This document shows positions 545 to 45,688 of a stretch of DNA of 64,000 nt, one piece after another (position 1 is the stretch's first letter; the number at the start of each line of letters is the position of its first letter). The DNA lies in assembly GCF_030012215.1 (NCBI RefSeq), contig NZ_JASCXX010000002.1, positions 1 to 64,000 of the forward strand. Reading direction: 5' to 3'. A program made the translations under genes and the position numbers. The stretch comes from Anaerobaca lacustris (GTDB taxonomy: Bacteria > Planctomycetota > Phycisphaerae > Sedimentisphaerales > Anaerobacaceae). Under the pieces are notes generated by a model. It saw only the letters and a program-made list of their open reading frames with translations. It was not told the DNA's origin and did no database searches.

Positions 545-1804
545 ATGACCTATCTGAATCTGCACCGAATCAAGCCTGTGGTTCTCCTTGCGGTGTTGTG
601 TGTGTGCGCGTCGGCGGCCGGAGGCGAATGGAAGCCTCTGTTCAACGGGCAGGACCTCGAAGGATGGAGCAATCCGTACGACTGGGGCAAGGCCTGGGTC
701 GAAGACGGGCAGATCGTGCTCCAGGCCGACCGGAAGTTCTTCCTCGTGGCGGACAAAACGTATCGCGATTTCATCTTCGAAGCCGAGGTGAAGATGCCCG
801 AGCGGCCGTCGAACTCCGGCTTCATGTTCCGCTGCCACAAAGAGCGCAACAAGGTCTATGGCTATCAGGCCGAAGTTGATCCCTCCGACCGGCAATGGTC
901 CGGCGGGCTTTACGACGAGGGACGACGCGGCTGGCTCCATCCCCGAAGCAACGACCCCGAGTCGGCCCGCGCGTTCGTCGAGAACGCCGGCGGGACGTTC
1001 CAGCGCGACGACTGGAACCGCTACCGCATCCATTGCGTCGGGCCGAGCATCCGCATCTACGTCAACGATGTCCTGACGACCGATTACATCGACACCACCG
1101 ACCGCGAGGGATACATCGCGATTCAACATCACGGCGAGGCCGGCAAGATGTACCGCTTCCGCAACCTGCGCATCCGGGAACTCAAGGCGCCGGCGGCGAT
1201 GACCGAGACCCGCAACGACATGCCGCTGGTGTTCGTCGAGGACTTCGAGAGCGGCGCCGGCCGCTGGACGCAGACCGATCCGAACGCCTGGAAGATCGTC
1301 GCCGAAGACGGCAACCACGTCTACGCCCAGCACCAGCAGAGCCGGTACCAGCCGCCCGTGCGCTCGCCGCTGAACATGGCGCGGATCAAGGACCTGAAGG
1401 TGGGCGACTTCGTGCTCCAGGCGCGGATGAAGCAGACCAGCCGGGAGTACGGCCATCGTGACATGTGCCTGTTCTTCGGCTATCAGGACCCGGCCCATTT
1501 CTACTACGTCCACATCGCCACGCAGGCCGACCCGCACGCCAACTCGATCTTTCTGGTCAACGGCGAGCCGCGCGTCTCCATCGCCAAAGAGCGGAACGAC
1601 GGTACCGACTGGGCCACCGGCTACCACGACGTGCGAGTCGTCCGCAACACGGCGAACGGCACAATTGAGGTCTTCTTCAACGACATGAGCAAGCCCATCA
1701 TGCGAACGGTGGATACGACGTTCGGCGCCGGCGGGATCGGCTTCGGGACCTTCGACGACACCGGCCACATTGACGACGTGATGATCTGGGGCCGCAAGCC
1801 ATAG
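545..1804 (+). CDS. Secreted DUF1080 (3-keto-disaccharide hydrolase-type) protein
   Basis: The 419-residue protein has a signal peptide at residues 1-25 (hydrophobic run VVLLAVLCVCASAAGG). It is followed by a DUF1080 fold opening with EWKPLFNGQDLEGW, the usual start of this concanavalin-like domain, to about residue 205. A second beta-sandwich of similar type fills residues 215-419 and contains DFESGAGRW. DUF1080 proteins are abundant in Planctomycetota, and some hydrolyse 3-keto-glycosides. The ATG at 545 is chosen because AAGGGG lies just upstream and it gives a clean signal peptide; a longer in-frame TTG start coincides with the promoter -35 box. It is the first gene of an operon with a pectate lyase and a TRAP transporter. 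The substrate cannot be read from the sequence. Confidence 0.85.
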   Translation: MTYLNLHRIKPVVLLAVLCVCASAAGGEWKPLFNGQDLEGWSNPYDWGKAWVEDGQIVLQADRKFFLVADKTYRDFIFEAEVKMPERPSNSGFMFRCHKERNKVYGYQAEVDPSDRQWSGGLYDEGRRGWLHPRSNDPESARAFVENAGGTFQRDDWNRYRIHCVGPSIRIYVNDVLTTDYIDTTDREGYIAIQHHGEAGKMYRFRNLRIRELKAPAAMTETRNDMPLVFVEDFESGAGRWTQTDPNAWKIVAEDGNHVYAQHQQSRYQPPVRSPLNMARIKDLKVGDFVLQARMKQTSREYGHRDMCLFFGYQDPAHFYYVHIATQADPHANSIFLVNGEPRVSIAKERNDGTDWATGYHDVRVVRNTANGTIEVFFNDMSKPIMRTVDTTFGAGGIGFGTFDDTGHIDDVMIWGRKP

Positions 1805-1845
1805 CGTGATTCACTGGTGGGAACCCTTTGCGAAGAGGCCGACCG

Positions 1846-3165
1846 ATGAACGCAAAGACGCTGGTCATACTCTGCACCCTCGTGGCCGTTTCGATGGCCG
1901 GTGCATCGCGTGGGGCGAGCGTTCCTGCTCGCCAAGGTGTGCGAGGACGCACGACCTACCGGCCCGCCCACACGCCGGGCGGTCGAGGCGGGCGCATTCT
2001 CCGCGTCACGAACCTCAACGCCGACGGCCCCGGCTCGTTTGCCGAGGCCGTGCGCGCCAAAGGGCCGAGGATCGTCGTCTTCGAGGTCGGCGGCGTGATC
2101 GATCTGGGCGGCAGGTCCGTCAGCATCAGCGAGCCGTTTCTAACGGTCGCCGGCCAGACGGCCCCGAGTCCGGGCATCACCTTCATTCGCGGCGGGATCG
2201 GCATCCGCACGCACGACGTGATCGTGCAACACATCTGTGTGCGTCCGGGCGAGGCCGGCCGCGAGAAGAAAAGCGGATGGGAGGTTGATGCGATCGCCAC
2301 CTCCGGCGGCGCCTACAACGTCGTCGTCGATCATTGCTCCTGTTCCTGGGCGACCGACGAGAACCTCAGCGCTTCGGGCCCGCGCTTCGACGGCGACGAC
2401 ATCGAGCAGTGGCGCCGGGGCACGTCGCGAGCGATCACATTCAGCAACTGCATCATCGCCGAGGGTCTGAGCCGATCGACGCACGCCAAGGGCGAGCATT
2501 CCAAAGGCACGCTGATCCACGACAACTGCACCGAGATCGCCATTGTCGGCAATCTGTACGCTCACAATCGCGACCGCAATCCGCTGTTCAAGGGCGGCGC
2601 GCAAGGCGTCGTGGTGAACAACTACATCTACAATCCCGCCGGCCGGGCCGTGCACTATGCGCTCGTGCGCAGCGAGTGGGGCGACCGTCCCTATGCGACC
2701 GGGCAGATGGCCATCGTGGGCAACGTGCTGGAGGCCGGTCCTTCGACGCGCGATCGCCTGTCGCTCTTTCGCCACCATGCCGGAGGGCCGTGCGAAGTCT
2801 TTCTGGATGACAACCTCGTCCTTGGCGTCGATGCGGATGTCCCTCTCGTCGAAGTGGACAGCCGGGCGGCGCCGGGCGAGTGCCGCGTGCTCGATGCCCC
2901 GCCGTTCTGGCCGGCAAATCTGACGGCGCTTCCGGCCGCCGAGGTCAAACGTCACGTCCTGGCCAACGCCGGCGCCAGGCCCTGGGATCGCGACGATGTG
3001 GATCGGCGTATCGTCGCCGAGGCCCGCAGCGGCCAGGGGCGGATCATCGACAGCGAGCAGGACGTCGGCGGATATCCCCAGGTCGAACCGACGCACGCCG
3101 CGTTCGATCCGGAGCAATGGAACCTGGACGACATGACCCGTCGTCGCCGTCAAAGGGACAGGTGA
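1846..3165 (+). CDS. Secreted pectate lyase-like right-handed beta-helix protein
   Basis: The 439-residue protein has a signal peptide at residues 1-21. It has the PL1-type polysaccharide lyase layout: VTNLNADGPGSF and the following strand early, then the turn motif SEPFLTVAGQTAP, then repeated parallel beta-helix coils rich in Asn and Asp. It would cleave pectin or polygalacturonate by beta-elimination outside the cytoplasmic membrane. The ATG at 1846 follows GAAGAGG. It lies 41 bp after the DUF1080 gene and 3 bp before dctP, so the unsaturated uronides it releases are plausible TRAP substrates. Oddity: residues 22-38, between signal peptide and helix, are encoded by a palindromic repeat that also occurs in an intergenic gap at 34.7 kb. 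The family is clear; exact substrate is inference. Confidence 0.85.
   Translation: MNAKTLVILCTLVAVSMAGASRGASVPARQGVRGRTTYRPAHTPGGRGGRILRVTNLNADGPGSFAEAVRAKGPRIVVFEVGGVIDLGGRSVSISEPFLTVAGQTAPSPGITFIRGGIGIRTHDVIVQHICVRPGEAGREKKSGWEVDAIATSGGAYNVVVDHCSCSWATDENLSASGPRFDGDDIEQWRRGTSRAITFSNCIIAEGLSRSTHAKGEHSKGTLIHDNCTEIAIVGNLYAHNRDRNPLFKGGAQGVVVNNYIYNPAGRAVHYALVRSEWGDRPYATGQMAIVGNVLEAGPSTRDRLSLFRHHAGGPCEVFLDDNLVLGVDADVPLVEVDSRAAPGECRVLDAPPFWPANLTALPAAEVKRHVLANAGARPWDRDDVDRRIVAEARSGQGRIIDSEQDVGGYPQVEPTHAAFDPEQWNLDDMTRRRRQRDR
1911..1959 (+). repeat. Double-hairpin repeat embedded in the pectate lyase gene
   Basis: It begins TGGGGCGAGCG and ends GGACGCACGACCTAC. It matches 34668-34722 with a few substitutions and a length difference in the middle. 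Each copy contains two small inverted repeats. Here it is read in frame as a linker after the signal peptide. Confidence 0.6.
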
Positions 3166-3168
3166 GCG

Positions 3169-4149
3169 ATGCGTCGATCTTGTGGACGAATTGTAGTTCT
3201 CTTGGCGGTGGTCCTGTGCATGTCGGGCCGCGTCTCGGCCCGGCCGGAACTGGTGCTCAAGCTGGCCCACGGCCTGCCGACGGCCCACCCCGTGCACGAG
3301 GCGATGCTGTTCATGGCCGAGCGCGTCGCCGCCAGGTCCGGCGGCCGCATGAAGGTCGAGGTCTTTCCCAGCGAGCAACTCGGCACCGAGAAGGAGTGCA
3401 TCGAGGCCCTGCAATTGGGGTATCTGGCGATGACCAAGACCAGCAGCGCGCCGATGGAAGGGTTCGTGCCGAGGATGCGGATCTTCGGCGTCCCCTATCT
3501 GTTTCGCGACGCCGACCATCTCTGGAAGGTGCTCAACGGCCCCATCGGCCGCGAGCTTCTGCTGGCGGGCGAGGCCAAGCGGCTGCGCGGGCTGTGTTAT
3601 TACGACGCCGGCGCCAGGAGTTTCTACACGAAGAACCGCCCGATCGAAACGCCCGCCGACCTGACGGGCCTGAAGATCCGCGTGCAGAACAGCGTCATGT
3701 CCATGCGAATGGTCCAGGCGATGGGCGGCTCGCCGACGCCGATCCCGTGGGGCGAGCTGTACACGGCGCTCGACCAGGGCGTTGTGGACGGCGCCGAGAA
3801 CAACGCGCCGTCGCTGCGGACTTCTCGGCATTATGAGGTCTGCAAATACTACATTCTCGACGAGCACACGTGCCTGCCCGATATCGTGGTGATCGGCACC
3901 CGCGTCTGGAACCGCATGACGGCCGAGCAGCAGAGAATCCTGCAGGAGGCGGCGGACGAATCCGTCGTCTATCAGCGCAAGCTGTGGGCCGAGGCCGAAG
4001 CCGCCGATCTCAAGGCGGTCGAAGAGGCCGGCGTCACGATCCTGCGGCCCGACAAGGGGCCGTTTCGCGAGTCGGTTCGCAGCGTGTGGGAGGAATTCGA
4101 AGGGACCGAGATCGGCGATCTGATCCGCCGAATCCAGGAGGTGCCATGA
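3169..4149 (+). CDS. dctP: TRAP transporter solute-binding protein, DctP family
   Basis: The 326-residue periplasmic binding protein has an N-terminal signal peptide (IVVLLAVVLCMSGRVSA). It shows the DctP pattern: LKLAHGLPTAHPVHEA at the start of the mature protein, KVEVFPSEQLGTEKE, and the central GLKIRVQNSVM, where the conserved Arg normally contacts a substrate carboxylate. Later, PWGELYTALDQGVVDGAENN is the usual family signature. The protein would capture an acidic ligand and deliver it to DctQM. Its place directly behind a pectate lyase suggests a uronate or oligogalacturonide ligand, which is inference. The stop overlaps the dctQ start (ATGA). Confidence 0.95.
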   Translation: MRRSCGRIVVLLAVVLCMSGRVSARPELVLKLAHGLPTAHPVHEAMLFMAERVAARSGGRMKVEVFPSEQLGTEKECIEALQLGYLAMTKTSSAPMEGFVPRMRIFGVPYLFRDADHLWKVLNGPIGRELLLAGEAKRLRGLCYYDAGARSFYTKNRPIETPADLTGLKIRVQNSVMSMRMVQAMGGSPTPIPWGELYTALDQGVVDGAENNAPSLRTSRHYEVCKYYILDEHTCLPDIVVIGTRVWNRMTAEQQRILQEAADESVVYQRKLWAEAEAADLKAVEEAGVTILRPDKGPFRESVRSVWEEFEGTEIGDLIRRIQEVP

Positions 4150-4661
4150 ATCTCGTCCGAACCATCAAGACCGTGCTGGACCGCTCGCTCGAAGTGCTGG
4201 TGATGGTCGTCGTGGCGGTGCTGGTGCTGGACGTGCTGTGGCAGGTGTTCACGCGGTTCATCCTGAACGATCCGAGCACGTGGACGGAAGAGTTGGCGGT
4301 GTTCCTGCTGATCTGGGTCTCGCTGCTCGGGGCGGCCGTGGCGCTGGGCCGCGGGGCGCACCTGGGCATCGACTATTTCGTCGGCAAGCTGCCCGAGCGG
4401 ACGCGGCTGGCGACAGAAGTGTTCGTGTTCTTCTGCGTCGCGGCCTTCTCGCTGCTGGTGATGCTCATCGGCGGCGTCGATCTGGTCCGCAGCACGCTCG
4501 AACTGGGCCAGGAATCGCCCGCCCTGGGCGTGCGGATGGGGTACGTGTATCTGGCCGTGCCGATCAGCGGGTTCTTCCTGACGCTGTACGCCGGGATCGG
4601 CCTGGTCGAGAGAATCCAGGGTTTGCTCAAGGGCGACCCATCGACTGACATGGCCCGTTGA
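4146..4661 (+). CDS. dctQ: TRAP transporter small permease, DctQ family
   Basis: The 171-residue protein has four hydrophobic segments, beginning with LVMVVVAVLVLDVLWQVF. The DctQ signature follows: STWTEELAVFLLIWVSLLGA, then an AVALGRGAHLGIDYF-type loop. It is the small membrane subunit that pairs with DctM and the binding protein. The ATG at 4146 overlaps the dctP stop by four bases, indicating translational coupling. An in-frame extension further upstream is rejected because it runs through dctP coding sequence in another frame. Confidence 0.95.
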   Translation: MNLVRTIKTVLDRSLEVLVMVVVAVLVLDVLWQVFTRFILNDPSTWTEELAVFLLIWVSLLGAAVALGRGAHLGIDYFVGKLPERTRLATEVFVFFCVAAFSLLVMLIGGVDLVRSTLELGQESPALGVRMGYVYLAVPISGFFLTLYAGIGLVERIQGLLKGDPSTDMAR

Positions 4662-4693
4662 GAATTCGGTTTGGTGTAGAAGGGGAGTGTTGC

Positions 4694-5998
4694 GTGGATC
4701 TACCCGTTGTGGTCCTGGTCGTCAGCTTCGTGGTCCTGCTCGTGCTGAATGTCCCGGTCGCGTTCTGCATGGGCATCGCGACGGTGCTGGCGTTTACGAC
4801 GATGAGCGGCGAACTGCCCGCCTTCGTCGCCGTCGCGCACCAGATCGCCACGGGCATCGACAGCTTCGCGCTGCTGGCGATCCCGTTCTTCATCCTGTCG
4901 GGCCAGTTGATGGGCCAGGGCGGCATCGCCCGGCGGCTGATCGACTTCGCCAATACGCTCGTCGGCCGCTTTCGCGGCGGGCTGGCCTTCGTCAACGTGG
5001 TCACGTGTATGTTCTTCGGCGCCATCAGCGGCTCGGCGACGGCCGCCATCTCGTCGGTCGGCGGTTTCATGGTCCCGCTGATGAACAAGATGGGCTACGA
5101 TCGCGACTTCAACGCCTCGGTGACGATCACCGCTGCGACGACCGGCCTGCTGATCCCGCCGAGCAACGTGATGATTGTTTACTCGCTCGCCACTGGCGGG
5201 GCGGTCTCGATCGCCGCGATCTTCATGGCGGGTTTCCTGCCCGGCATCCTCGTCGGGCTCGGCCTGATCCTCGTCAGCGCCGTCATCAGCGTCCGGCACA
5301 ATTACGGCAAGGGCGAGACCTTCCCGTTCCGTGAGGGTGTGGTCCGCTTCTTCAAGGCGGTCCCGGCGCTGCTGCTGGTCTTCATCGTCATCGGCGGCAT
5401 CCTGCTGGGCTGGTTCACCCCGACCGAGGCCTCGGCGGTCGCGGTGCTCTACGCGTTCTTCCTGGCGGTGGTGGTCTATCGCGAAGTGCGCATTCGCGAC
5501 CTGCCGCGCATTCTTCTGCAATGCGGGATCACGACGTCGGTCGTGTTCCTGCTGATCGGCACGAGCATGGCCATGTCGTGGGTGCTGGCGTCGGAGAATG
5601 TCCCACAGGACATCAGCGCCTATCTCGTCGGACTGACCGACAGCAAGGTCCTGCTGCTGCTGATGATCAATGCGATCCTCCTGGCGGTCGGGACGTTCAT
5701 GGACATGACGCCGGCGATCCTGATCTTCACGCCGATCTTCCTGCCCGTCGCCGAGCGGCTGGGCCTGCACCCGCTGCACTTCGGCATCGTCATGATTATG
5801 AACCTGTGCATCGGCCTGTGCACCCCGCCGGTCGGGACGTGCCTGTTCCTCGGCTGCGGGATCGCCGAGACGACCGTGACCAGGGTCATGCGTCACATCC
5901 TGCCGTTCTTCGGCGCGATGTTCGTGACCCTGCTGATCTGCACCTTCGTCCCGGACATCTCGCTCTGGCTGCCCGACAAACTCGGCTTCGTCCGCTGA
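4694..5998 (+). CDS. dctM: TRAP transporter large permease, DctM family
   Basis: The protein has 434 residues and about a dozen transmembrane segments. Family landmarks include AIPFFILSGQLMGQGG, the FFGAISGSATAAISSVGG stretch, a GLLIPPSN motif and its second-half counterpart GLCTPPVG. It is the sodium- or proton-coupled channel subunit of the TRAP system. I chose the GTG at 4694 because AGGGGAG lies about 8 bp upstream and the length then fits the family. An earlier TTG at 4658 overlapping dctQ is possible but lacks a ribosome binding site. It is the last gene of the operon. Confidence 0.93.
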   Translation: MDLPVVVLVVSFVVLLVLNVPVAFCMGIATVLAFTTMSGELPAFVAVAHQIATGIDSFALLAIPFFILSGQLMGQGGIARRLIDFANTLVGRFRGGLAFVNVVTCMFFGAISGSATAAISSVGGFMVPLMNKMGYDRDFNASVTITAATTGLLIPPSNVMIVYSLATGGAVSIAAIFMAGFLPGILVGLGLILVSAVISVRHNYGKGETFPFREGVVRFFKAVPALLLVFIVIGGILLGWFTPTEASAVAVLYAFFLAVVVYREVRIRDLPRILLQCGITTSVVFLLIGTSMAMSWVLASENVPQDISAYLVGLTDSKVLLLLMINAILLAVGTFMDMTPAILIFTPIFLPVAERLGLHPLHFGIVMIMNLCIGLCTPPVGTCLFLGCGIAETTVTRVMRHILPFFGAMFVTLLICTFVPDISLWLPDKLGFVR

Positions 5999-6006
5999 TT
6001 GCCCCC

Positions 6007-6100
6007 GCTCGTAGTGTGCCCATGAGGGCATATCCCGACGGGCTGAGGCCTCGCGTTGACACGGCGAACGGGTAACGCCTTACGGCGTCACTACAAGCGC
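6007..6100. repeat. Structured palindromic repeat, family A copy 1
   Basis: Ends carry inverted GTAGTG (6011-6016) and CACTAC (6089-6094). Inside are two small hairpins, TGCCCATGAGGGCA (6017-6030) and CGCCTTACGGCG (6076-6087). The same design recurs at 18131-18202. It lies just after dctM. Confidence 0.65.
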
Positions 6101-6120
6101 TTCGCCTCGTCGTGGCCGTG

Positions 6121-6327
6121 TCAATTCCGCAGTTCGTCTTCGAGCGAGTCGAGGCCCATGATGACGTCGTGCATGTAGACGCGCCGTCCGCTCGGCGTGT
6201 CGGTGGCGGCGTACGTGTGGCCGCTGCCCGGATCGACGTAGGCGTACCACCTGTACTTCGACAGCCACTCGTAATCCTCGTCGTCGACCTTCGCCTTCTG
6301 CCCGTTGTTCAACGGAATCTCTTTCAT
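6121..6327 (-). CDS. 68-residue HNH-associated N-terminal-like protein, copy 1
   Basis: The short protein starts MKEIPLNNGQKAKVDDEDYE, then WLSKYRWYAY, and ends with a MHDVIMG block and an acidic tail. This pattern resembles the DNA-binding N-terminal region seen in some phage-type HNH endonucleases. The ORF stops exactly where an HNH catalytic core would begin, so no nuclease residues are present. A GGAGG-type ribosome binding site precedes the ATG. An almost identical copy lies at 8705-8911, and the pair brackets the ParA/AlbA_2 genes. It may be a decayed endonuclease remnant or a free-standing small DNA-binding protein. Conservation of the frame in both copies favours a translated protein. 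Confidence 0.6.
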   Translation of the reverse strand: MKEIPLNNGQKAKVDDEDYEWLSKYRWYAYVDPGSGHTYAATDTPSGRRVYMHDVIMGLDSLEDELRN

Positions 6328-6380
6328 GCTCTGCTCGCCTCCACTCGCTATGCCGTCATTTCTGTGTGCTCACCAGAACA

Positions 6381-6407
6381 CGAGAGAGCACGAGAGAGCA
6401 CGAGAAC
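6381..6407 (+). repeat. 10-bp tandem repeat
   Basis: The unit CGAGAGAGCA is present twice (6381-6390, 6391-6400), followed by a partial third copy. It lies between the small ORF and the end of the ParA gene. It is too short for a centromere-like iteron array, but it is the only tandem repeat near this ParA. Confidence 0.5.
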
Positions 6408-6426
6408 ACCGCGCTTGCGTGCTCCG

Positions 6427-7428
6427 TCATTTGCGGCCTCTGCCCTCGGCATCATCGGTTCTGCGAATGATCTCCTGCGTGAGATGTTTGAAGTCCATAT
6501 AGCATTTTGACACCGCCGCCGCATGGGCGCCGATCGCGCCATCAGCAGGCGTTAGTCTGAAGATGGGCTTTCGTGCATCCTCGGCAAGCGGCATCAGGCT
6601 CTGATAGTTCTTGATGAACCCAATGCGGTTGGGTTCTGTCTCCGTGTCTGCCACGTGGCCTTTGTTCCCGAGCACATATGTTTCATAGACCTCGGGTATC
6701 TTCTCAACCCACCGCTGATAGGCTTTGACTGGACGGTTCTTACGCTCAACGTGCTGCATGACCACGTACCCAGCCGGCTTCATGATGCCCATGGGCATGG
6801 GAATAGCCAAATCAGCAGGTTTTGCTTCCAGGCGCTGTCGCCAGTTCGCTCGCCACGTCAGGAGGGTGGGCCCCAGATTCCTGAGACCTTGCAGCGAGAA
6901 CAGGCCGGGAGCCAGGGGCATCACGACGTGGTCCGACGCAATGAGAGACGCCCGGTTGATTGCACCAAGATTCGGCCCGACATCCATGAGTACGATATCC
7001 GCGTTGACCCTCTCGGCGGCATGGTGAATGATGCGGTAGAACGCCGTTATGACACGGAAGGCTGCTTTGTCACCATCCAGACAACGTGGCCAACTGTCAG
7101 AGAGCTTGTCCTCGAACTGGGAAAGGCCCAGATCTCCAGGTAGAAGATGGATTCCCGGACGAATGTGTTGCAGCGGTGCCTCCGCTATGTCACCCACTCC
7201 ATCAATGATCGGGGAAATACAGGAGAGGATGCTACTATTCCCTCCCTCCTCGGGCCACAACATCGCTTGGCGATCCTCTTCGATGAACATCGTGGTCAGG
7301 TTGGCCTGAGGATCGAGGTCGACAGCCAAAACGCGCTGGCCAAGCTCTGCACACATCCAGGCAATGTGATACACCAGCGTGGTCTTGCCGACGCCGCCTT
7401 TGTTATTGAAGAAGGTGATTGTCCTCAT
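6427..7428 (-). CDS. ParA/Soj-type ATPase
   Basis: The 333-residue protein has the deviant Walker A motif NNKGGVGKTT at residues 8-17, with the ParA signature lysine. LAVDLDPQANLTTMF follows at about 38-52 and a Walker B-like VLMDVGPNLGAI at about 145. It lacks an N-terminal helix-turn-helix, and no ParB gene is nearby, so plasmid-type partitioning is doubtful. It overlaps the upstream AlbA_2 gene by four bases (ATGA), so the two are translated together and probably act together. Related ParA-like ATPases occur in partitioning, protein positioning and accessory or defence cassettes. Which applies here is not visible. Confidence 0.85.
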   Translation of the reverse strand: MRTITFFNNKGGVGKTTLVYHIAWMCAELGQRVLAVDLDPQANLTTMFIEEDRQAMLWPEEGGNSSILSCISPIIDGVGDIAEAPLQHIRPGIHLLPGDLGLSQFEDKLSDSWPRCLDGDKAAFRVITAFYRIIHHAAERVNADIVLMDVGPNLGAINRASLIASDHVVMPLAPGLFSLQGLRNLGPTLLTWRANWRQRLEAKPADLAIPMPMGIMKPAGYVVMQHVERKNRPVKAYQRWVEKIPEVYETYVLGNKGHVADTETEPNRIGFIKNYQSLMPLAEDARKPIFRLTPADGAIGAHAAAVSKCYMDFKHLTQEIIRRTDDAEGRGRK

Positions 7429-8618
7429 CGTGCGGTCTCTTTGATTGTTGCCAGGAAGAAGGCCGGTTCATCGATGCAAAAGTCTGCCGGCGGATTCCCA
7501 TTGTCGCTCAGGAATCGCTGGGTCCGGGCAATGCCTCGACCAAACGTATTGACGTAACCGAGTATCTTCATGGCCTCGGCTATCTTGGGATTGCGGTAAT
7601 CGTTCTGGTCTGGGAATGTCTCTGGTGTGACTGCCCCGTATAGTCCGCCCGGATTCTGTATCTCGATGCGCCCACGGAACCAATAGAATCGTATCGGTGC
7701 ATTGGATTCGTAGTCGCGGTGCATCACGGCGTTCATGAGCAGCTCTCGAATCGCAGGCATCGGGTAAGCAGTGCGAATAACTTCTTTGAGTGCGGACGTG
7801 GATTCCGGCCGGGATGGAAACAATGTTCTCAGGAAGCCGTCGAGCTCTCTGAGCACCGTAATCAGATCGCCTTCGAAACGCCGTTCATCCAAAACCTCAC
7901 TGTCCAATCCGTCGTCCTGATATCGCACATATTGGATCGCCGCACCGGGAAACCAGTTCAGAGGGTCTTGCGAAAAGAGGATGGCGCCAGCGTTTGTCGC
8001 GCAGGCTTCGGTCGGGCACCAGAAGCCGAGGGATGCCATTTGCAGAAGCATATCGCGATTGTTCTCTTCGACGAGTTCTGGAGCAATCGCCGCCTTCAGG
8101 TACGTGAGTTGAAACAGATCCAGTACAAGGTCATCACGGCCACACCCTCTGCAAGGTCTTAGGTCGAATGTGCGTGCACGGTGAGTTCGTCTCTCCGTGA
8201 GAATCCGTTCTTCCTGCTCGTTGGCGATTGCCTTACGCGGTCCTCGCCGGATACACACCCGTCCGCGATAGCGAACAGGGGGCACATCGGAAGGGCGAAC
8301 CTCAACCACGGCTAGGTCGCCTTCGGGTAGCGACATCTTCTGCACCGTCATGGACGGTAGTGGAACGATCTGGCCGGAGTCAGCATAACTGGACAGCTTC
8401 TGCAACAACCGGTCTGTCACCTCTGTGCCTTTCACCTGGCCGTCGTCATCTTGCGCTCCAACGATGAGATAACCAGGGCGATTGTTCCCCGGCATATCAT
8501 TGGCAAACGCGCAAATCGCCTCACAGAACTTGTCTGTGTCGGTTGTTGACACGGTTCGTTCGACCCGATCCGATTCCAAATCGGCCAGCAACTCTCTCAA
8601 TTCCCGTTCGTCAATCAT
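7425..8618 (-). CDS. AlbA_2/Schlafen-type ATP-binding protein
   Basis: In this 397-residue protein, residues 1-120 form an AlbA_2 (divergent AAA_4/Schlafen-like) domain: an acidic start, CEAICAFANDMPGNNRPGYL, then IVGAQDDDGQVKG. A Cys pair (RPCRGCGRDD) sits near residue 157. The C-terminal part has a GHKL/HATPase-like region with RELLMNAVMHRDYES, IEIQNPGGLYG and NTFGRGI, as in RecG-like and Schlafen-AlbA_2 proteins. Such proteins are thought to bind nucleic acid and nucleotide, and several are associated with phage defence or transcription control. It is first in a two-gene operon with the ParA-type ATPase. I see no convincing ribosome binding site at a normal distance from the ATG. Confidence 0.85.
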   Translation of the reverse strand: MIDERELRELLADLESDRVERTVSTTDTDKFCEAICAFANDMPGNNRPGYLIVGAQDDDGQVKGTEVTDRLLQKLSSYADSGQIVPLPSMTVQKMSLPEGDLAVVEVRPSDVPPVRYRGRVCIRRGPRKAIANEQEERILTERRTHRARTFDLRPCRGCGRDDLVLDLFQLTYLKAAIAPELVEENNRDMLLQMASLGFWCPTEACATNAGAILFSQDPLNWFPGAAIQYVRYQDDGLDSEVLDERRFEGDLITVLRELDGFLRTLFPSRPESTSALKEVIRTAYPMPAIRELLMNAVMHRDYESNAPIRFYWFRGRIEIQNPGGLYGAVTPETFPDQNDYRNPKIAEAMKILGYVNTFGRGIARTQRFLSDNGNPPADFCIDEPAFFLATIKETAR

Positions 8619-8704
8619 TGCGGCTTTGTGCCTTCTTTAATGCGCCCACTGAATCTGTAATCGACGTCAGCAACCATCTATACTGCCCCGAATCAACGTG
8701 GCTG

Positions 8705-8911
8705 TCAATTGCGCAGTTCGTCTTCGAGCGAGTCGAGGCCCATGATGACGTCGTGCATGTAGACGCGCCGTCCGCTCGGCGTGTCGGTGGCGGCGTACGT
8801 GTGGCCGCTGCCCGGATCGACGTAGGCGTACCACGTGTATCGCGACAGCCACTCGTAATCCTCGTCGTCGACCTTCGCCTTCTGCCCGTTGTTCAACGGA
8901 ATCTCTTTCAT
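8705..8911 (-). CDS. 68-residue HNH-associated N-terminal-like protein, copy 2
   Basis: It is a second copy of the ORF at 6121-6327. By eye the two differ at 5 of 207 bases, giving only two amino-acid changes (SKYRWY here reads SRYTWY) and one synonymous change. A GGAGGTG ribosome binding site precedes its ATG. Same strand and orientation as copy 1, so the two form a long direct repeat around the ParA/AlbA_2 operon. Function is unknown; homology to the DNA-binding N-terminus of HNH endonucleases is inferred from the conserved block. Confidence 0.6.
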   Translation of the reverse strand: MKEIPLNNGQKAKVDDEDYEWLSRYTWYAYVDPGSGHTYAATDTPSGRRVYMHDVIMGLDSLEDELRN

Positions 8912-9057
8912 GCTCGTCGCACCTCCGCTCTTCGTGTCGGCCTTTCGGCCGCAACACCGCCGGCGGCTGACGTGGGCAGCCGCTTCCCACACCCATGATA
9001 GCCCAAACCGCCCACAAAGCCAACAACATCCATCGATGTGAAGGCCCAAGGAGGGGT

Positions 9058-9314
9058 GCACTTCACGTTTGTAGGTAGATCCTGGGGGCTCTGCAATCGA
9101 CTTTGTCATTCCGACCGGAGCGCAGCGCAGTGGAGGAATCTGGCTGCGAATGGGACATTGCCTTATCCTCGGCCAGATTTCTCCGTGCGGGCTTCGCCCC
9201 ATTCGACTTCGCTCAGAGCCGGCCCTGAGCGAAGTCGAACGGGGCAAGCTCTTAGTCGAAAAGACAAGGTTCTTTCCTATACTTGGCAGGAACCTACCTA
9301 CAAACACGCAGTGC
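9058..9314. repeat. Possible miniature element bounded by imperfect inverted repeats
   Basis: The left end (9058-9085) begins GCACTTCACGTTTGTAGGTA. The right end (9287-9314), read on the other strand, begins GCACTGCGTGTTTGTAGGTA. About 22 of 28 positions agree, with one gap. The interior holds no gene. The layout resembles a MITE; no target-site duplication is obvious. Confidence 0.4.
9196..9245. repeat. Long hairpin repeat of the TTCGACTTCGCTCAG type
   Basis: The arms at 9197-9216 and 9225-9244 are 20 nt each with a single mismatch, around an 8-nt loop; one further pair extends the stem. A related half-element, CGAGCGAAGTCGAGC, occurs near 11850. Such TTCGACTTCGCTCAG palindromes are dispersed in many environmental bacterial genomes. 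Confidence 0.7.
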
Positions 9315-9466
9315 AGCTCCCAAGGGGTGCAAGCACCCCGATTCCCTTGTCTGGCGGGAGGAAATGCGGTAGTATGGATGGGTGCCGCAGAGGGGGGGAC
9401 GCAGCGTGAGGCAGAAGCTTGCAGGGCGTGGAAGCGGAGCGACAGTGACATGGGCGGAGGCAGAAG

Positions 9467-9958
9467 ATGAACCGAGGCATCGTCACGAAGCGGATCATTC
9501 AGGGCGTGGCCGTCGCCTTTGGCGTGCTTGGCCTGATGTGGATGTTCATGGGGCTCGGTTTTGCCGTCACCGGCTTCAGGGAACCTGATTATCTCATGAC
9601 GCTCTTGGGGATCTCGATGGCTGTCGTTCTCGGCGGAGTTCTCGTCGCCATTGCGTGGGCGAATCTGCGTCACTTTGGATCGCGATCCATTCGGCATGTG
9701 GCCGCACTTGTCGTCGCCACCATATACCTTTGCTTTTCCTCGTGGTTGTTTCAGTTGATGGAGTGGTTGGAGCGGGCGAAACCGATGGTCGGCCTGCTCC
9801 TTGTTGCCATGCTCTGGCTCTCGCTGTATCTGATGCACCGGCTCTACCGGGCCTTGAGCTGCAAGCTGATTCAACTGGCCGGACTGGCAAATGGCGAGCG
9901 GGGCGACCCCGCCTTACTGTCGGATGCGCCATCGGACGCGCCTTCCGAAAGGGAATAG
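9467..9958 (+). CDS. Small integral membrane protein, unknown function
   Basis: The 163-residue protein has four predicted membrane segments (about 11-33, 44-65, 76-98, 105-125). A polar, acidic C-terminal tail follows, containing the near-repeat SDAPSDAPSERE. The gene begins with a plausible ATG and is followed 33 bp later by another membrane protein gene on the same strand. I recognise no family. It may form a small membrane unit with its neighbour. Confidence 0.6.
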   Translation: MNRGIVTKRIIQGVAVAFGVLGLMWMFMGLGFAVTGFREPDYLMTLLGISMAVVLGGVLVAIAWANLRHFGSRSIRHVAALVVATIYLCFSSWLFQLMEWLERAKPMVGLLLVAMLWLSLYLMHRLYRALSCKLIQLAGLANGERGDPALLSDAPSDAPSERE

Positions 9959-9991
9959 CCCCAGGGATAGGTTTTGGGTAGTGTGGATGAG

Positions 9992-10735
9992 ATGAGACGA
10001 TCGTTGCGATGCGTGGTGGTGTCGGTGTTGTGGCTGGCGTGGCTGGGTCTGCTGCCGGGGACGTTCGTGGTGGCGCTGGTGACGGGGCAGGGCGGGTGGA
10101 GCCGGTTCTGGTGGATGTCGTCGGCGGTGCTGGTGGCCGCCGCGTGGGTCCACTGGTTCTGGCAGCGGCGGGGCCGGCTGGGTCCGGCGTGCGCCCTGAT
10201 CGCCTGCGGGATCACCCTGGGCATGCTGGCCGACCTCTACGGCGCGTTCGCGGCCCTGCGCTTCACCGAGCCGCTGACGATGATCGTCCCGCTGTTCGCC
10301 CTGGGGCACGTCGGCTATATCGCCGGCTTCCTGATGGCGGCGAGCCGCCTGGGGCTCTCCGGCCGGCCCGGATGGCGCGGGACGCTGGCGGGCGCCGTGG
10401 CGCTCTACAATCTGGCCGGCCTGGCCCTCTGGGTGACGCTGGTGCACCCCTCAGACGCGCTGCCCGGCATGCACCTGCCGACGGCGGTGTACACGGTCTT
10501 CCTCGCGACGGCCGCTGCGGTGATGGCGGCTCTGGCCTGCTTCGACCGGCGATTTCTCGCGGTGGGCATCGGCGGGCTGCTCTTTTTGCTCAGCGACGGC
10601 TTCCTGGCGGTCCGCCTCTTCCAGGACAACTGGCGCGGCATCGGCGACCTCTGCTGGATCACCTACGGCATCGGGCAGATGCTGATCGTCTACGGCGTCA
10701 TCGCCGCCACCTGGCCCCGCGAAGGCCGGGACTAA
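9992..10735 (+). CDS. YhhN-like (lysoplasmalogenase-type) membrane protein, tentative
   Basis: The 247-residue protein has about seven or eight membrane segments and almost no soluble domain. The central ALGHVGYIAGF, followed by a second-half LLFLLSDGFLAVRLF, resembles YhhN/TMEM86 family proteins, which include lysoplasmalogenases. The similarity is only by eye. I took the ATG at 9992; GTG 9983 and TTG 9974 are alternatives. It sits 33 bp behind another small membrane protein gene on the same strand. Confidence 0.5.
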   Translation: MRRSLRCVVVSVLWLAWLGLLPGTFVVALVTGQGGWSRFWWMSSAVLVAAAWVHWFWQRRGRLGPACALIACGITLGMLADLYGAFAALRFTEPLTMIVPLFALGHVGYIAGFLMAASRLGLSGRPGWRGTLAGAVALYNLAGLALWVTLVHPSDALPGMHLPTAVYTVFLATAAAVMAALACFDRRFLAVGIGGLLFLLSDGFLAVRLFQDNWRGIGDLCWITYGIGQMLIVYGVIAATWPREGRD

Positions 10736-10783: not shown

Positions 10784-10820
10784 CTGTGGAGTCGAACGGA
10801 TTGGCATAAGGATGCAGGCG

Positions 10821-11165
10821 ATGATTGAGAAGGCACATGTGAACGGCAACGGGGCGGATCGCCACTTGCTTGCCCAATGCAAGGCGGCCATTTGCGAGGT
10901 GGCTCCCGAGGCCCACGTGGTCCTCTACGGATCGCGAGCCCGGGGCGACGCCCGCGACGACTCGGACTACGACCTGCTCGTGCTCGTCGATCGGGAAGTG
11001 GATGTGTCGCTCGAACGCGCCATTGTAGACCGTCTGGCCCCGCTGGAGGCCCGCACGGGCAAAGCCCTGACGACGCTGGTCTACAATCGCACGCAATGGA
11101 ATTCTCCCCTGTACCGCGCCATGCCCCTGCACCAGAGCGTCGCACGCGAGGGCCGGACCCTATGA
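10821..11165 (+). CDS. MNT-domain minimal nucleotidyltransferase (antitoxin)
   Basis: The protein is 114 residues long. The polymerase-beta fold signature GSRARGDARDDSDYDLLV carries the G-S-x(n)-D-x-D active site of minimal nucleotidyltransferases. In MNT/HEPN toxin-antitoxin pairs this protein (MntA type) neutralises the HEPN RNase, in studied systems by adding AMP to it. The HEPN gene overlaps its stop by four bases, as expected. I prefer the ATG at 10821 because AAGGA lies 8-9 bp upstream; an ATG at 10812 would put that site too close. Intact catalytic residues suggest an active enzyme. Confidence 0.88.
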   Translation: MIEKAHVNGNGADRHLLAQCKAAICEVAPEAHVVLYGSRARGDARDDSDYDLLVLVDREVDVSLERAIVDRLAPLEARTGKALTTLVYNRTQWNSPLYRAMPLHQSVAREGRTL

Positions 11166-11557
11166 CGCCGGAAGAACGGACGCTGGTCCAGTACCGCCTC
11201 GCACGCGCTCGCGAGGCTCTCGACGAGGCCGCACTCCTATTCGATGCGGGCCATCTTCACACCTACGTGAATCGACTCTATTATGCGTGCTTCTACGCCA
11301 TGTCCGCGCTGCTGCTGGCCAGAGGGTTGTCAACGAGCAGGCATAGCCATCTGCGAGGTCTCCTGCACAAGGAGTTCGTCCATCCCGGCCTGATCCCCAT
11401 CGACCGCGGCCAGTTCTTCGATCTCCTCTACAACAGCCGCCAGAAGGGCGACTACTCCGACCTTGTCGTCTTCAAGGCCGCCGAGGTCCAGCAGTGGCTC
11501 GCCCAAGCCCGCGACTTCGTCGATCATGTCTCCACCCTGACCCTCGGCCAGCCGTAA
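11162..11557 (+). CDS. HEPN-domain protein (toxin partner of MNT)
   Basis: The 131-residue helical protein has the HEPN pattern: RLARAREALDEAALLFDAGH, then NRLYYACFYAMSALLL. A late YNSRQKGDYSDL segment is typical of the UPF0332-like HEPN branch. The classical RxxxxxxH RNase motif of HepT toxins is not clearly present; the Arg of NSRQKGDY occupies the equivalent place. It may therefore be a weaker or differently acting RNase, or an RNA-binding partner. It overlaps the MNT gene by four bases, so the two are co-translated as a toxin-antitoxin-like unit. Confidence 0.85.
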   Translation: MTPEERTLVQYRLARAREALDEAALLFDAGHLHTYVNRLYYACFYAMSALLLARGLSTSRHSHLRGLLHKEFVHPGLIPIDRGQFFDLLYNSRQKGDYSDLVVFKAAEVQQWLAQARDFVDHVSTLTLGQP

Positions 11558-12135
11558 TAGGCAGGTGGGGCTTTCCCTGCCATGTCCCTCCGACAATTGT
11601 GCGGCAGGCAGGGCCGTTCAGGGTTTCGCTTTCTTCTTGGCCTGCCGGCGTTTTGCGTGGACCAGTATCAAGTGTGAAGTGTGGATGTGCGGTGGTGTGG
11701 CCTATAGCCTCCCGCCTGCCGGAACCGAGATACGAGATTCGGGATTCGAGCAACACAGGCCGTAGACGGGAGGCCGCAGGTTGCTGGCCGGAGGCCCCCA
11801 TCTATGCTCCCACCCGTTTACGAGATACGAGAGAAGCCTGCTCCGAGCGAAGTCGAGCAGAGATTCGAGATACGCCTCTTTTTCCTTGCCCCGTCCCCAT
11901 CCTTCGCCGAGAATACCTCCAACGAGCACGGGCCAGAGCAGCGCCCCGGCGTGCACCGAGGACCCAGAGACGTGCGAAACCGAAGACCCGCGACAACGCG
12001 ACAAGACACGATCACGACAGGTGATTATGCCTCCCGAAGTCCGCACGAGCCGCCGACGGACCCGCTGGACAAACCAGAAAACGTGGCGTGTCCCCTATTC
12101 TCACGCCATGGCCTTCAGTTCAAGAGGTTGGTGAA
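11558..12135. other. Intergenic region with degenerate short repeats
   Basis: No coding pattern is visible on either strand. The stretch contains several variants of CGAGATACGAGA and GAGATTCGAGA (around 11727, 11820 and 11867), a piece related to the 9.2-kb hairpin, and the inverted pair GCCTCCCG/CGGGAGGC. It looks like accumulated mobile-repeat debris. Confidence 0.5.
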
Positions 12136-41312: not shown

Positions 41313-41674
41313 GGTCGTGTACCTCCAGTACCGAATTGGAAAGACTCCTCAGGACCGCCATTGTGGCGCATGGCGATGCCGAACGCAAGTTCGAATCGCA
41401 CGTCTGTACCTCACGGGTGCGATTCCTGTTTGCACATGGATTCTCGCAGAGCCCAGCAACACGTCCCGTCGTTCCCGGTAGGGGCGACGCATGCGTCGCC
41501 CTTACGGCACACGATCTGACCATCGCTTGTGTAGCAGATGAGTCTACCGGTGTGGTTTGACGGCTGATCGACTCGGTATGCCGCGGGTGGCAGCCTCAAG
41601 CCCGCAGGGCTTGGGGATGGCGGACGTCTGGGCCGCGAGCGGCCGGACGTGACGTGCGGGACGAATGGCAGAGG
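41313..41674. other. Intergenic region with two palindromic repeats
   Basis: It holds the palindrome GGGCGACGCATGCGTCGCCC (41482-41501, flanked by GTA and TAC), a type dispersed in many genomes. It also holds a 35-bp half copy (41587-41621) of the element at 45593-45688. No gene is visible, although it must contain the promoter of the GH78 operon. Confidence 0.6.
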
Positions 41675-45577: not shown

Positions 45578-45592
45578 GTCCCATCACCGCCG

Positions 45593-45688
45593 GTGGCAGC
45601 CTCAAGCCCGCAGGGCTTGGGGATGGCAGTCACCGATAAGACAGCCCAATCCGCCATCCCCAAACGCTACCGCGTTTGAGGCTGCCAC
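45593..45688. repeat. Cruciform repeat element, family B
   Basis: The outer arms GTGGCAGCCTCAA (45593-45605) and its complement (45676-45688) are perfect. Two side hairpins follow, GCCCGCAGGGC and ACGCTACCGCGT, then an inner perfect 11-bp stem (45617-45627 with 45653-45663). The left half alone recurs at 41587-41621. Confidence 0.8.

Follow-up and report, generated by a model that had tools for sequence, protein, structure and literature searches.

ParA-type ATPases are positioning machines for DNA and other large cargo. At least 1017 taxa have been reported to encode Schlafen-HATPase RNases near bacteriophage exclusion (BREX) and related systems, and Schlafen RNases are counted among the backup suicidal effectors (passages of PMC12839542). 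In SLFN13, residues E205 and E210 are described as essential for tRNA cleavage (passages of PMC5862951). Here, we analysed a locus of Anaerobaca lacustris in which genes for a ParA-type ATPase and an AlbA_2/Schlafen-HATPase protein lie next to each other, between two copies of a 68-codon open reading frame (ORF). The locus is located in the first 64,000 nucleotides of contig NZ_JASCXX010000002.1, which were analysed as a whole and are called the window below. Our analyses show that the pair is a real, conserved and patchily distributed module of foreign composition, most likely acquired horizontally. We consider it rather likely that it works by abortive infection or in the manner of a toxin-antitoxin system, the effector being a Schlafen-type RNase and the guard the ParA protein, and genomic context indicates that it is probably antiviral.

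The AlbA_2/Schlafen-HATPase gene (7425-8618; reverse strand, as are the ATPase gene, the ORFs and the repeat copies described below) encodes a predicted RNase effector of 397 residues. Pfam places SLFN_AlbA_2 at residues 15-130 (8229-8576; E = 4.5e-14) and HATPase_c_4 at residues 307-387 (7458-7700; E = 9.7e-14), both above their cut-offs, and the first of these, with 53.4 bits against a curated cut-off of 25.3, assigns the protein to the AlbA_2 family. E15 and E20 have the same spacing as the catalytic E205 and E210 of SLFN13 and are kept in all 27 rows that cover them in a 30-row alignment. The best fold match of the structure model is 3lmm, over nearly the full length with a template modelling (TM) score of 0.52, and weaker Foldseek matches comprise GHKL-type kinases, in keeping with the HATPase domain, and human SLFN14 (E = 3e-3). 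Relatives in the phage collection are at most 29% identical among 15 of the 28 records. Taken together, these features suggest a Schlafen-type RNase with a putative effector role.

The stop codon of this gene and the start codon of the ATPase gene (6427-7428) share the bases ATGA at 7425-7428. Such a 4-bp overlap is common at other loci (exactly 4 bp at 16 of the 19 other pair loci measured), and with the RNase-type domain it gives the pair the overlapping two-gene layout of type II toxin-antitoxin systems. The ATPase has 333 residues, matches AAA_31 (E = 8.5e-31) and belongs to a subfamily conserved over its full length. Its deviant Walker A motif, NNKGGVGKT (residues 8-16; 7381-7407), is invariant in all 11 rows of an alignment with 10 full-length relatives of 49-83% identity; the motif with its signature lysine and the ParA fold define a ParA-type ATPase. 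No ParB domain was found in the four locus proteins scanned, and at 28 of 30 loci the gene next to ParA, where a ParABS system would have ParB, encodes the AlbA protein. An original prediction, made from the DNA letters, had described two overlapping inner genes, one ParA-like without ParB and one AlbA_2/HATPase, and both the overlap and the Pfam matches confirm it. Its suggestion of a DNA-positioning role fared worse: besides the missing ParB in those four proteins, the partners of the ParA subfamily point to growth arrest.

The association of the two genes extends well beyond this genome. Both were adjacent in all 10 relatives tested first. When 392 genomes of the phylum were searched with a profile, the ParA gene was placed in at least 18 of them, at 20 places including the window, with the AlbA gene directly upstream at 18 places, twice in two pieces; one of the remaining places lies at a contig end and the other has a different neighbour. 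The search from the AlbA side gave 22 places in at least 20 of the 392 genomes, 17 of which adjoin a ParA place by comparison of coordinates, while the five others lie near contig ends (G183, G340) or are shortened matches (G272, G227 and one of two in G372). These searches scored at most five (ParA) or four (AlbA) candidates per genome among those listed, so that both genome counts are lower bounds. Counting the window, 28 of 30 genome loci have AlbA beside ParA, and the adjacency that the original prediction proposed to look for is thus genuine, with a patchy distribution in the phylum. AlbA genes are broken at some loci, as expected of a dispensable or harmful gene, being split in G433 and G409 and carrying an in-frame stop in G368 and G340.

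Several lines of evidence concern horizontal acquisition. The pair is present in two of the six genomes of the window's genus. Its composition is foreign, because the G+C content at third codon positions (GC3) is 0.61/0.66 in the pair and 0.85-0.92 in eight nearby genes. The nearest named ParA matches come from Phycisphaerae, Phycisphaerales and Sedimentisphaerales. Since ParA relatives with 76-84% identity carry the names Phycisphaerae, Sumerlaeota and Hydrogenedentota, these matches, which are metagenome bins and to be read with that caveat, suggest a transfer of the pair between phyla. Distant ParA relatives also occur in Pf1 (27.8% identity) and P22-like phages (25.5%; phage records H82 and H84-H88).

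The link to defence is provided by two loci. In one (L124), the pair lies between PglX (1555 bits) and PglZ (934 bits), followed by BrxL (978 bits), that is, inside a BREX operon. This is an IMG/VR contig, on which PglX, the pair, PglZ and BrxL form one row on one strand (559-10351). In the other (L102), the pair is placed between HmaA and HmaB (1705 and 1534 bits), with HmaC (1151 bits) further on. BREX and Hma are unrelated systems, and it is difficult to account for the presence of the pair within both if it serves no use there. The defence function that the original prediction had tentatively attributed to a cassette is therefore retained as probable for the pair, and not for the ORF, which is no part of it. 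At the window locus, no BREX or Hma genes were found among the neighbouring genes looked at.

Further support comes from the other partners of the same ParA subfamily. Among 60 ParA loci on viral contigs, the partner is SIR2 at 21, RelA/SpoT at 20, AlbA at two and HEPN at none; six are located at the end of a contig, and for 11 no partner was recognised. These are the loci at 100 bits or more from an IMG/VR profile scan, of which the best 80 of 207 confirmed relatives were used, near-duplicates included. Eleven plasmid loci, hand-picked among the best 40 of at least 5000 records, gave six SIR2 (SIR2_2), one HEPN and no RelA/SpoT partner, with four partnerless. Pfam names were verified for three SIR2 and five RelA_SpoT members, the others being assigned by clustering and cluster-built profiles. 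Two of the SIR2 partners were scanned, and they match models of ThsA and Dsr2. As a control, none of 35 ParA loci below 100 bits (20 viral, 15 from related genomes) had any of the four partner types. ParA-RelA/SpoT two-gene units stand on the viral contigs L135, L136, L157, L164 and L171. Two members without a partner were also seen, one beside an annotated phage tail gene (L118) and one, in an E. coli record, near a gene that we read as repressor-like (L122).

A ParA tree reveals that partner type follows the ParA clades. Partner type needs 5 changes on the tree, against a mean of 36.8 after shuffling, by a quick method. A single branch splits off the SIR2 rows from all others (26 rows, support 99), and the AlbA rows share a group of 30 rows with one row that has no partner; other parts of the tree contain long branches that meet. 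The tree comprises 75 of 101 rows, after contig-edge loci, envelopes shorter than 230 residues and identical rows were excluded. This removed 15 of the 20 RelA/SpoT-type loci, so that these are represented by 5 of 20, together with the single HEPN locus. A broader reading, which we put forward tentatively as something short of an even bet, is that a distinct ParA subfamily serves as a general guard or switch for chemically unrelated growth-arrest effectors (Schlafen, SIR2 of the NADase type, RelA/SpoT and HEPN), with the partner following the clade and the ATP switch of ParA replacing an antitoxin or sensor. Such ParA-effector pairs would make up a modular class of defence systems, of which the window would hold the Schlafen branch.

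Because ParA is the constant member across the subfamily and the toxic-type enzyme the variable one, we infer an effector role for the RNase and a restraining or sensing role for ParA. In such a scheme, the ATPase would hold the RNase inactive until a phage-caused change releases it; the released enzyme would cut tRNA or other RNA, and growth would stop before the phage multiplies. The identity of the toxin, restraint or sensing by ParA, the RNA target and phage defence itself are predictions, and a phage as trigger is suggested only by genomic context.

Some observations weigh against this scheme. The pair does not usually occur within defence islands, embedding being limited to two cases: 88 neighbour proteins were scanned at 20 pair loci, mostly of Planctomycetota, with genes called by a simple script, and they belong mostly to metabolic, transport and kinase families. 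Specifically, these families prevail in the best 25 of 87 Pfam families, where two members are PemK toxins, and the best 25 of 84 PADLOC families are mainly kinase models of the PD-T4-6 type (three members); kinase matches were not counted as evidence of defence. The third acidic position of the AlbA_2 domain is less constant than the glutamate pair, with D57 in 21 of 28 rows and four N, one E and two K in the others. The C-terminal half of the protein is modelled well, but the model is weak for the Schlafen domain (mean predicted local distance difference test 69), and the Schlafen assignment consequently relies on the Pfam match and the residue pattern. Among the best 25 plasmid relatives of the AlbA protein, four are annotated as transcriptional regulators and 12 as RNA-binding domain proteins. 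Finally, the partnerless loci (11 of 60 viral and 4 of 11 plasmid) indicate that ParA may act alone.

An alternative that we regard as unlikely, while leaving it an appreciable share, is a toxin-antitoxin module that maintains itself or a carrier element and has no anti-phage role. The two-gene architecture with its 4-bp overlap is what such a module would have, ParA relatives do occur on plasmids and viral contigs, and the broken AlbA copies in four genomes are what selfish genes would show. Against it stand the positions inside two defence operons, and the neighbour families are mostly not plasmid or phage genes, as far as a survey in which no search was aimed at mobile genes can tell.

It is distinctly unlikely that the two proteins form a regulatory pair, in which AlbA_2/HATPase is a DNA-binding regulator and ParA a co-regulator. 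The four transcriptional-regulator annotations mentioned above favour this view, as do one Pf1 and one P22-like (ST160) record, which annotate the ParA relative as a regulatory protein. However, both catalytic glutamates are invariant, the unrelated toxic-type partners of the ParA subfamily are not predicted for a DNA-binding co-regulator, and the neighbour families listed mostly occur once, so that no constant target gene is in sight.

A module of two genes leaves the flanking ORFs to be explained. A repeat search of the window returned a single pair for this bracket, a direct repeat of 244 nt with 93% identity at a spacing of 2584 (6119-6362 and 8703-8946), which is no chance match. Repeat copies of this kind are not part of the module elsewhere, no ORF match being present in the flanks covered for other pair loci. 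ORF copy 1 (6121-6327) adjoins a tripartite ATP-independent periplasmic (TRAP) transporter gene, and copy 2 (8705-8911) has an upstream region shared by G002 and G005. The two ORFs differ at five of 207 coding bases, which leads to two residue changes and includes one change in a synonymous codon, and each has an ATG start behind GGAGG, on the same strand and in the same frame, with no internal stop. The original prediction was accurate on these points: it had counted five differences in 207 positions between two same-orientation ORFs, each keeping its ribosome binding site and frame. Its 207-bp repeat holds for the coding bases, while the match is 244 nt long and extends about 35 nt beyond each ORF start on the upstream side, where identity is much lower; in an ungapped comparison, the first 20 upstream bases differ at 6 positions and the next 20 at 10. 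No DNA copies beyond these two were found in the host genome, an assembly of 5.73 Mb in 117 contigs, at E 0.001.

Other features were recorded in the window. Tandem-like acgagagagc units lie at 6378-6409, between the ParA stop codon and ORF copy 1, and a 41-nt direct repeat pair, 98% identical, is present at 41581-41621 and 45587-45627. A tRNA gene search of the window found none.

A same-genus genome (G002) carries one ORF beside the same TRAP operon and no ParA match at E 1e-10. Its left flank is collinear, matching in pieces over 629-5994 at 77.5-82%, and its upstream side matches copy 2 up to 8989, so that about 78 bp upstream of the ORF are common. Beyond 8989 the flanks differ: G002 has an arabinofuranosidase-like gene, and the window's right flank is found on another G002 contig. 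A dispersed repeat of about 260 bp (9054-9315), with dozens of matches in genomes of the genus, lies beside this junction. Because of the differing flanks and the dispersed repeat, G002 is only a partial empty site, and the right junction is rearranged. The clean single-ORF empty site that the original prediction proposed to look for was therefore found in part, as a single-ORF allele beside the TRAP operon whose right flank is not collinear. A second dispersed repeat family of the genus occurs at 11821-12010. About 1.9 kb from ORF copy 2, an NTP_transf_2 nucleotidyltransferase gene followed by an overlapping HEPN-domain gene (10812-11557) forms a pair of the MNT-HEPN type.

A further explanation is an assembly artefact, in which the repeat joined pieces of two genomes in a metagenome-assembled genome. 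We hold this to be highly unlikely. The assembly is in 117 contigs, the composition of the pair deviates and collinearity with G002 is lost on the right beyond 8989, but two independent false joins would be needed, the repeat copies carry distinguishing variants, the contig is 381 kb long, the left flank is collinear with G002 and the pair is present in many other assemblies.

The ORF itself has a history separate from the pair. At E 1e-20 or better, it occurs singly in each of 10 of 60 other genomes, with 59-94% identity, and among the genomes searched only that of the window has two copies. The relatives examined have a length of about 68 residues. Proteins that match more weakly are larger and have an HNH-like motif in the next segment; the one that was scanned matches HNH_3. 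Rather than a decayed HNH gene, the ORF is therefore a small protein that is conserved on its own and is related to the pre-HNH region of these larger proteins; the original prediction, which saw the DNA-binding end of an HNH protein, was right about the relationship and not about the loss of a nuclease. The ORF is also native in composition, because the GC3 of copy 2 (0.855) and copy 1 (0.87) matches that of the eight nearby genes; the value for the nucleotidyltransferase gene, the ninth one compared, is 0.79.

No match to the ORF was present in 48 sequences carrying this ParA, nearly all with the AlbA partner (L096, L099 and L113 have none, and some sites are covered twice). At 23 of 24 other sites, five of which have fewer than 600 bases on one side, no 18-mers are common to both sides of the pair. 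The remaining site (L112) shares ten 18-mers in a short repeat, L060 has a 300-nt repeat with both copies on one side of the pair, and L056, L058 and L059 have a few imperfect repeats of 21-31 nt that span the pair and look like chance. In turn, a search for the pair at E 1e-15 in 10 loci around single ORF copies gave no match.

A mobile cassette defined by the ORF repeats, with recombination between them moving the inner genes, is scarcely plausible given these results. The exact bracket at the window locus and the single-ORF allele of G002 suit it, but the absence of the ORF from the 48 ParA-carrying sequences and of common 18-mers at 23 sites, the native ORF around a foreign pair and the lack of the pair at the 10 single-ORF loci largely refute it. 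The independent insertions compared do not share this bounding repeat, as those of a repeat-bounded cassette would, and we rejected the cassette since the other pair copies examined have neither the ORF nearby nor comparable brackets. The original prediction had made the ORF part of the cassette and had staked the idea on adjacency elsewhere and on flanking ORFs related to the pair: the genes are adjacent elsewhere, and the ORF is unrelated to them. The bracket consists of a native gene that was duplicated locally and plays no part in the working of the module. This gene may have been duplicated at the insertion site of the pair or may have recombined with that site; gene conversion between the copies would fit the pattern, and so would a crossover with incoming ORF-carrying DNA. 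We give next to no credence to a remnant of a plasmid partition system, which the ParA fold and matches to plasmid RepA/ParA models recall, since those matches are far below curated cut-offs (69 against 348 bits), the four proteins scanned have no ParB domain and the adjoining gene encodes an enzyme-type partner.

These results separate a duplicated native ORF from the neighbouring foreign pair. If it is true that the ParA subfamily controls several unrelated toxic enzymes, plasmids and proviruses would carry many components of immunity or addiction under the annotation 'ParA family protein', and a set of two-gene systems with exchangeable effectors would become directly testable.

Among the literature matches listed, which cover titles, beginnings of abstracts and term counts and lie outside bioRxiv preprints, there is no description of ParA-Schlafen, ParA-SIR2 or ParA-alarmone-synthetase pairs. 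The bacterial Schlafen RNases near BREX, which have a C-terminal minimal histidine kinase, share with our protein the domain order of Schlafen followed by HATPase, and one BREX embedding was found here; ParA as a whole word, however, occurs 0 times in the main text of PMC12839542, which also mentions a wHTH. In SLFN13, the glutamate pair at 205/210 corresponds to 15/20 in the window protein, and a third acidic residue follows 37-39 residues further on (38 in SLFN13), according to passages of PMC5862951. The window protein differs from mammalian Schlafens in having one AlbA_2 domain found, whereas theirs is a two-lobed N domain, as well as a C-terminal HATPase and a less conserved third acidic residue.

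The ATPase, in turn, resembles the ParA/MinD ATPases of ParABS systems in its deviant Walker A motif and fold, and departs from them in that no ParB was present in the proteins scanned here and that its subfamily, conserved over its full length, pairs with effectors. SIR2 effectors of the ThsA/Dsr2 type and small alarmone synthetases of the toxic (toxSAS) class have counterparts in the SIR2 and RelA_SpoT partners of the same ParA subfamily. Unlike the pair described here, those pairs have the reversed order, with the effector downstream of ParA, and an effector chemistry unrelated to Schlafen. In the Panacea/NetFlax network, the partner is Panacea, and the words ParA, SIR2 and Schlafen are absent from the portions of PMC10440598 considered; the likeness described there is one of principle, with one common partner domain and interchangeable toxins.

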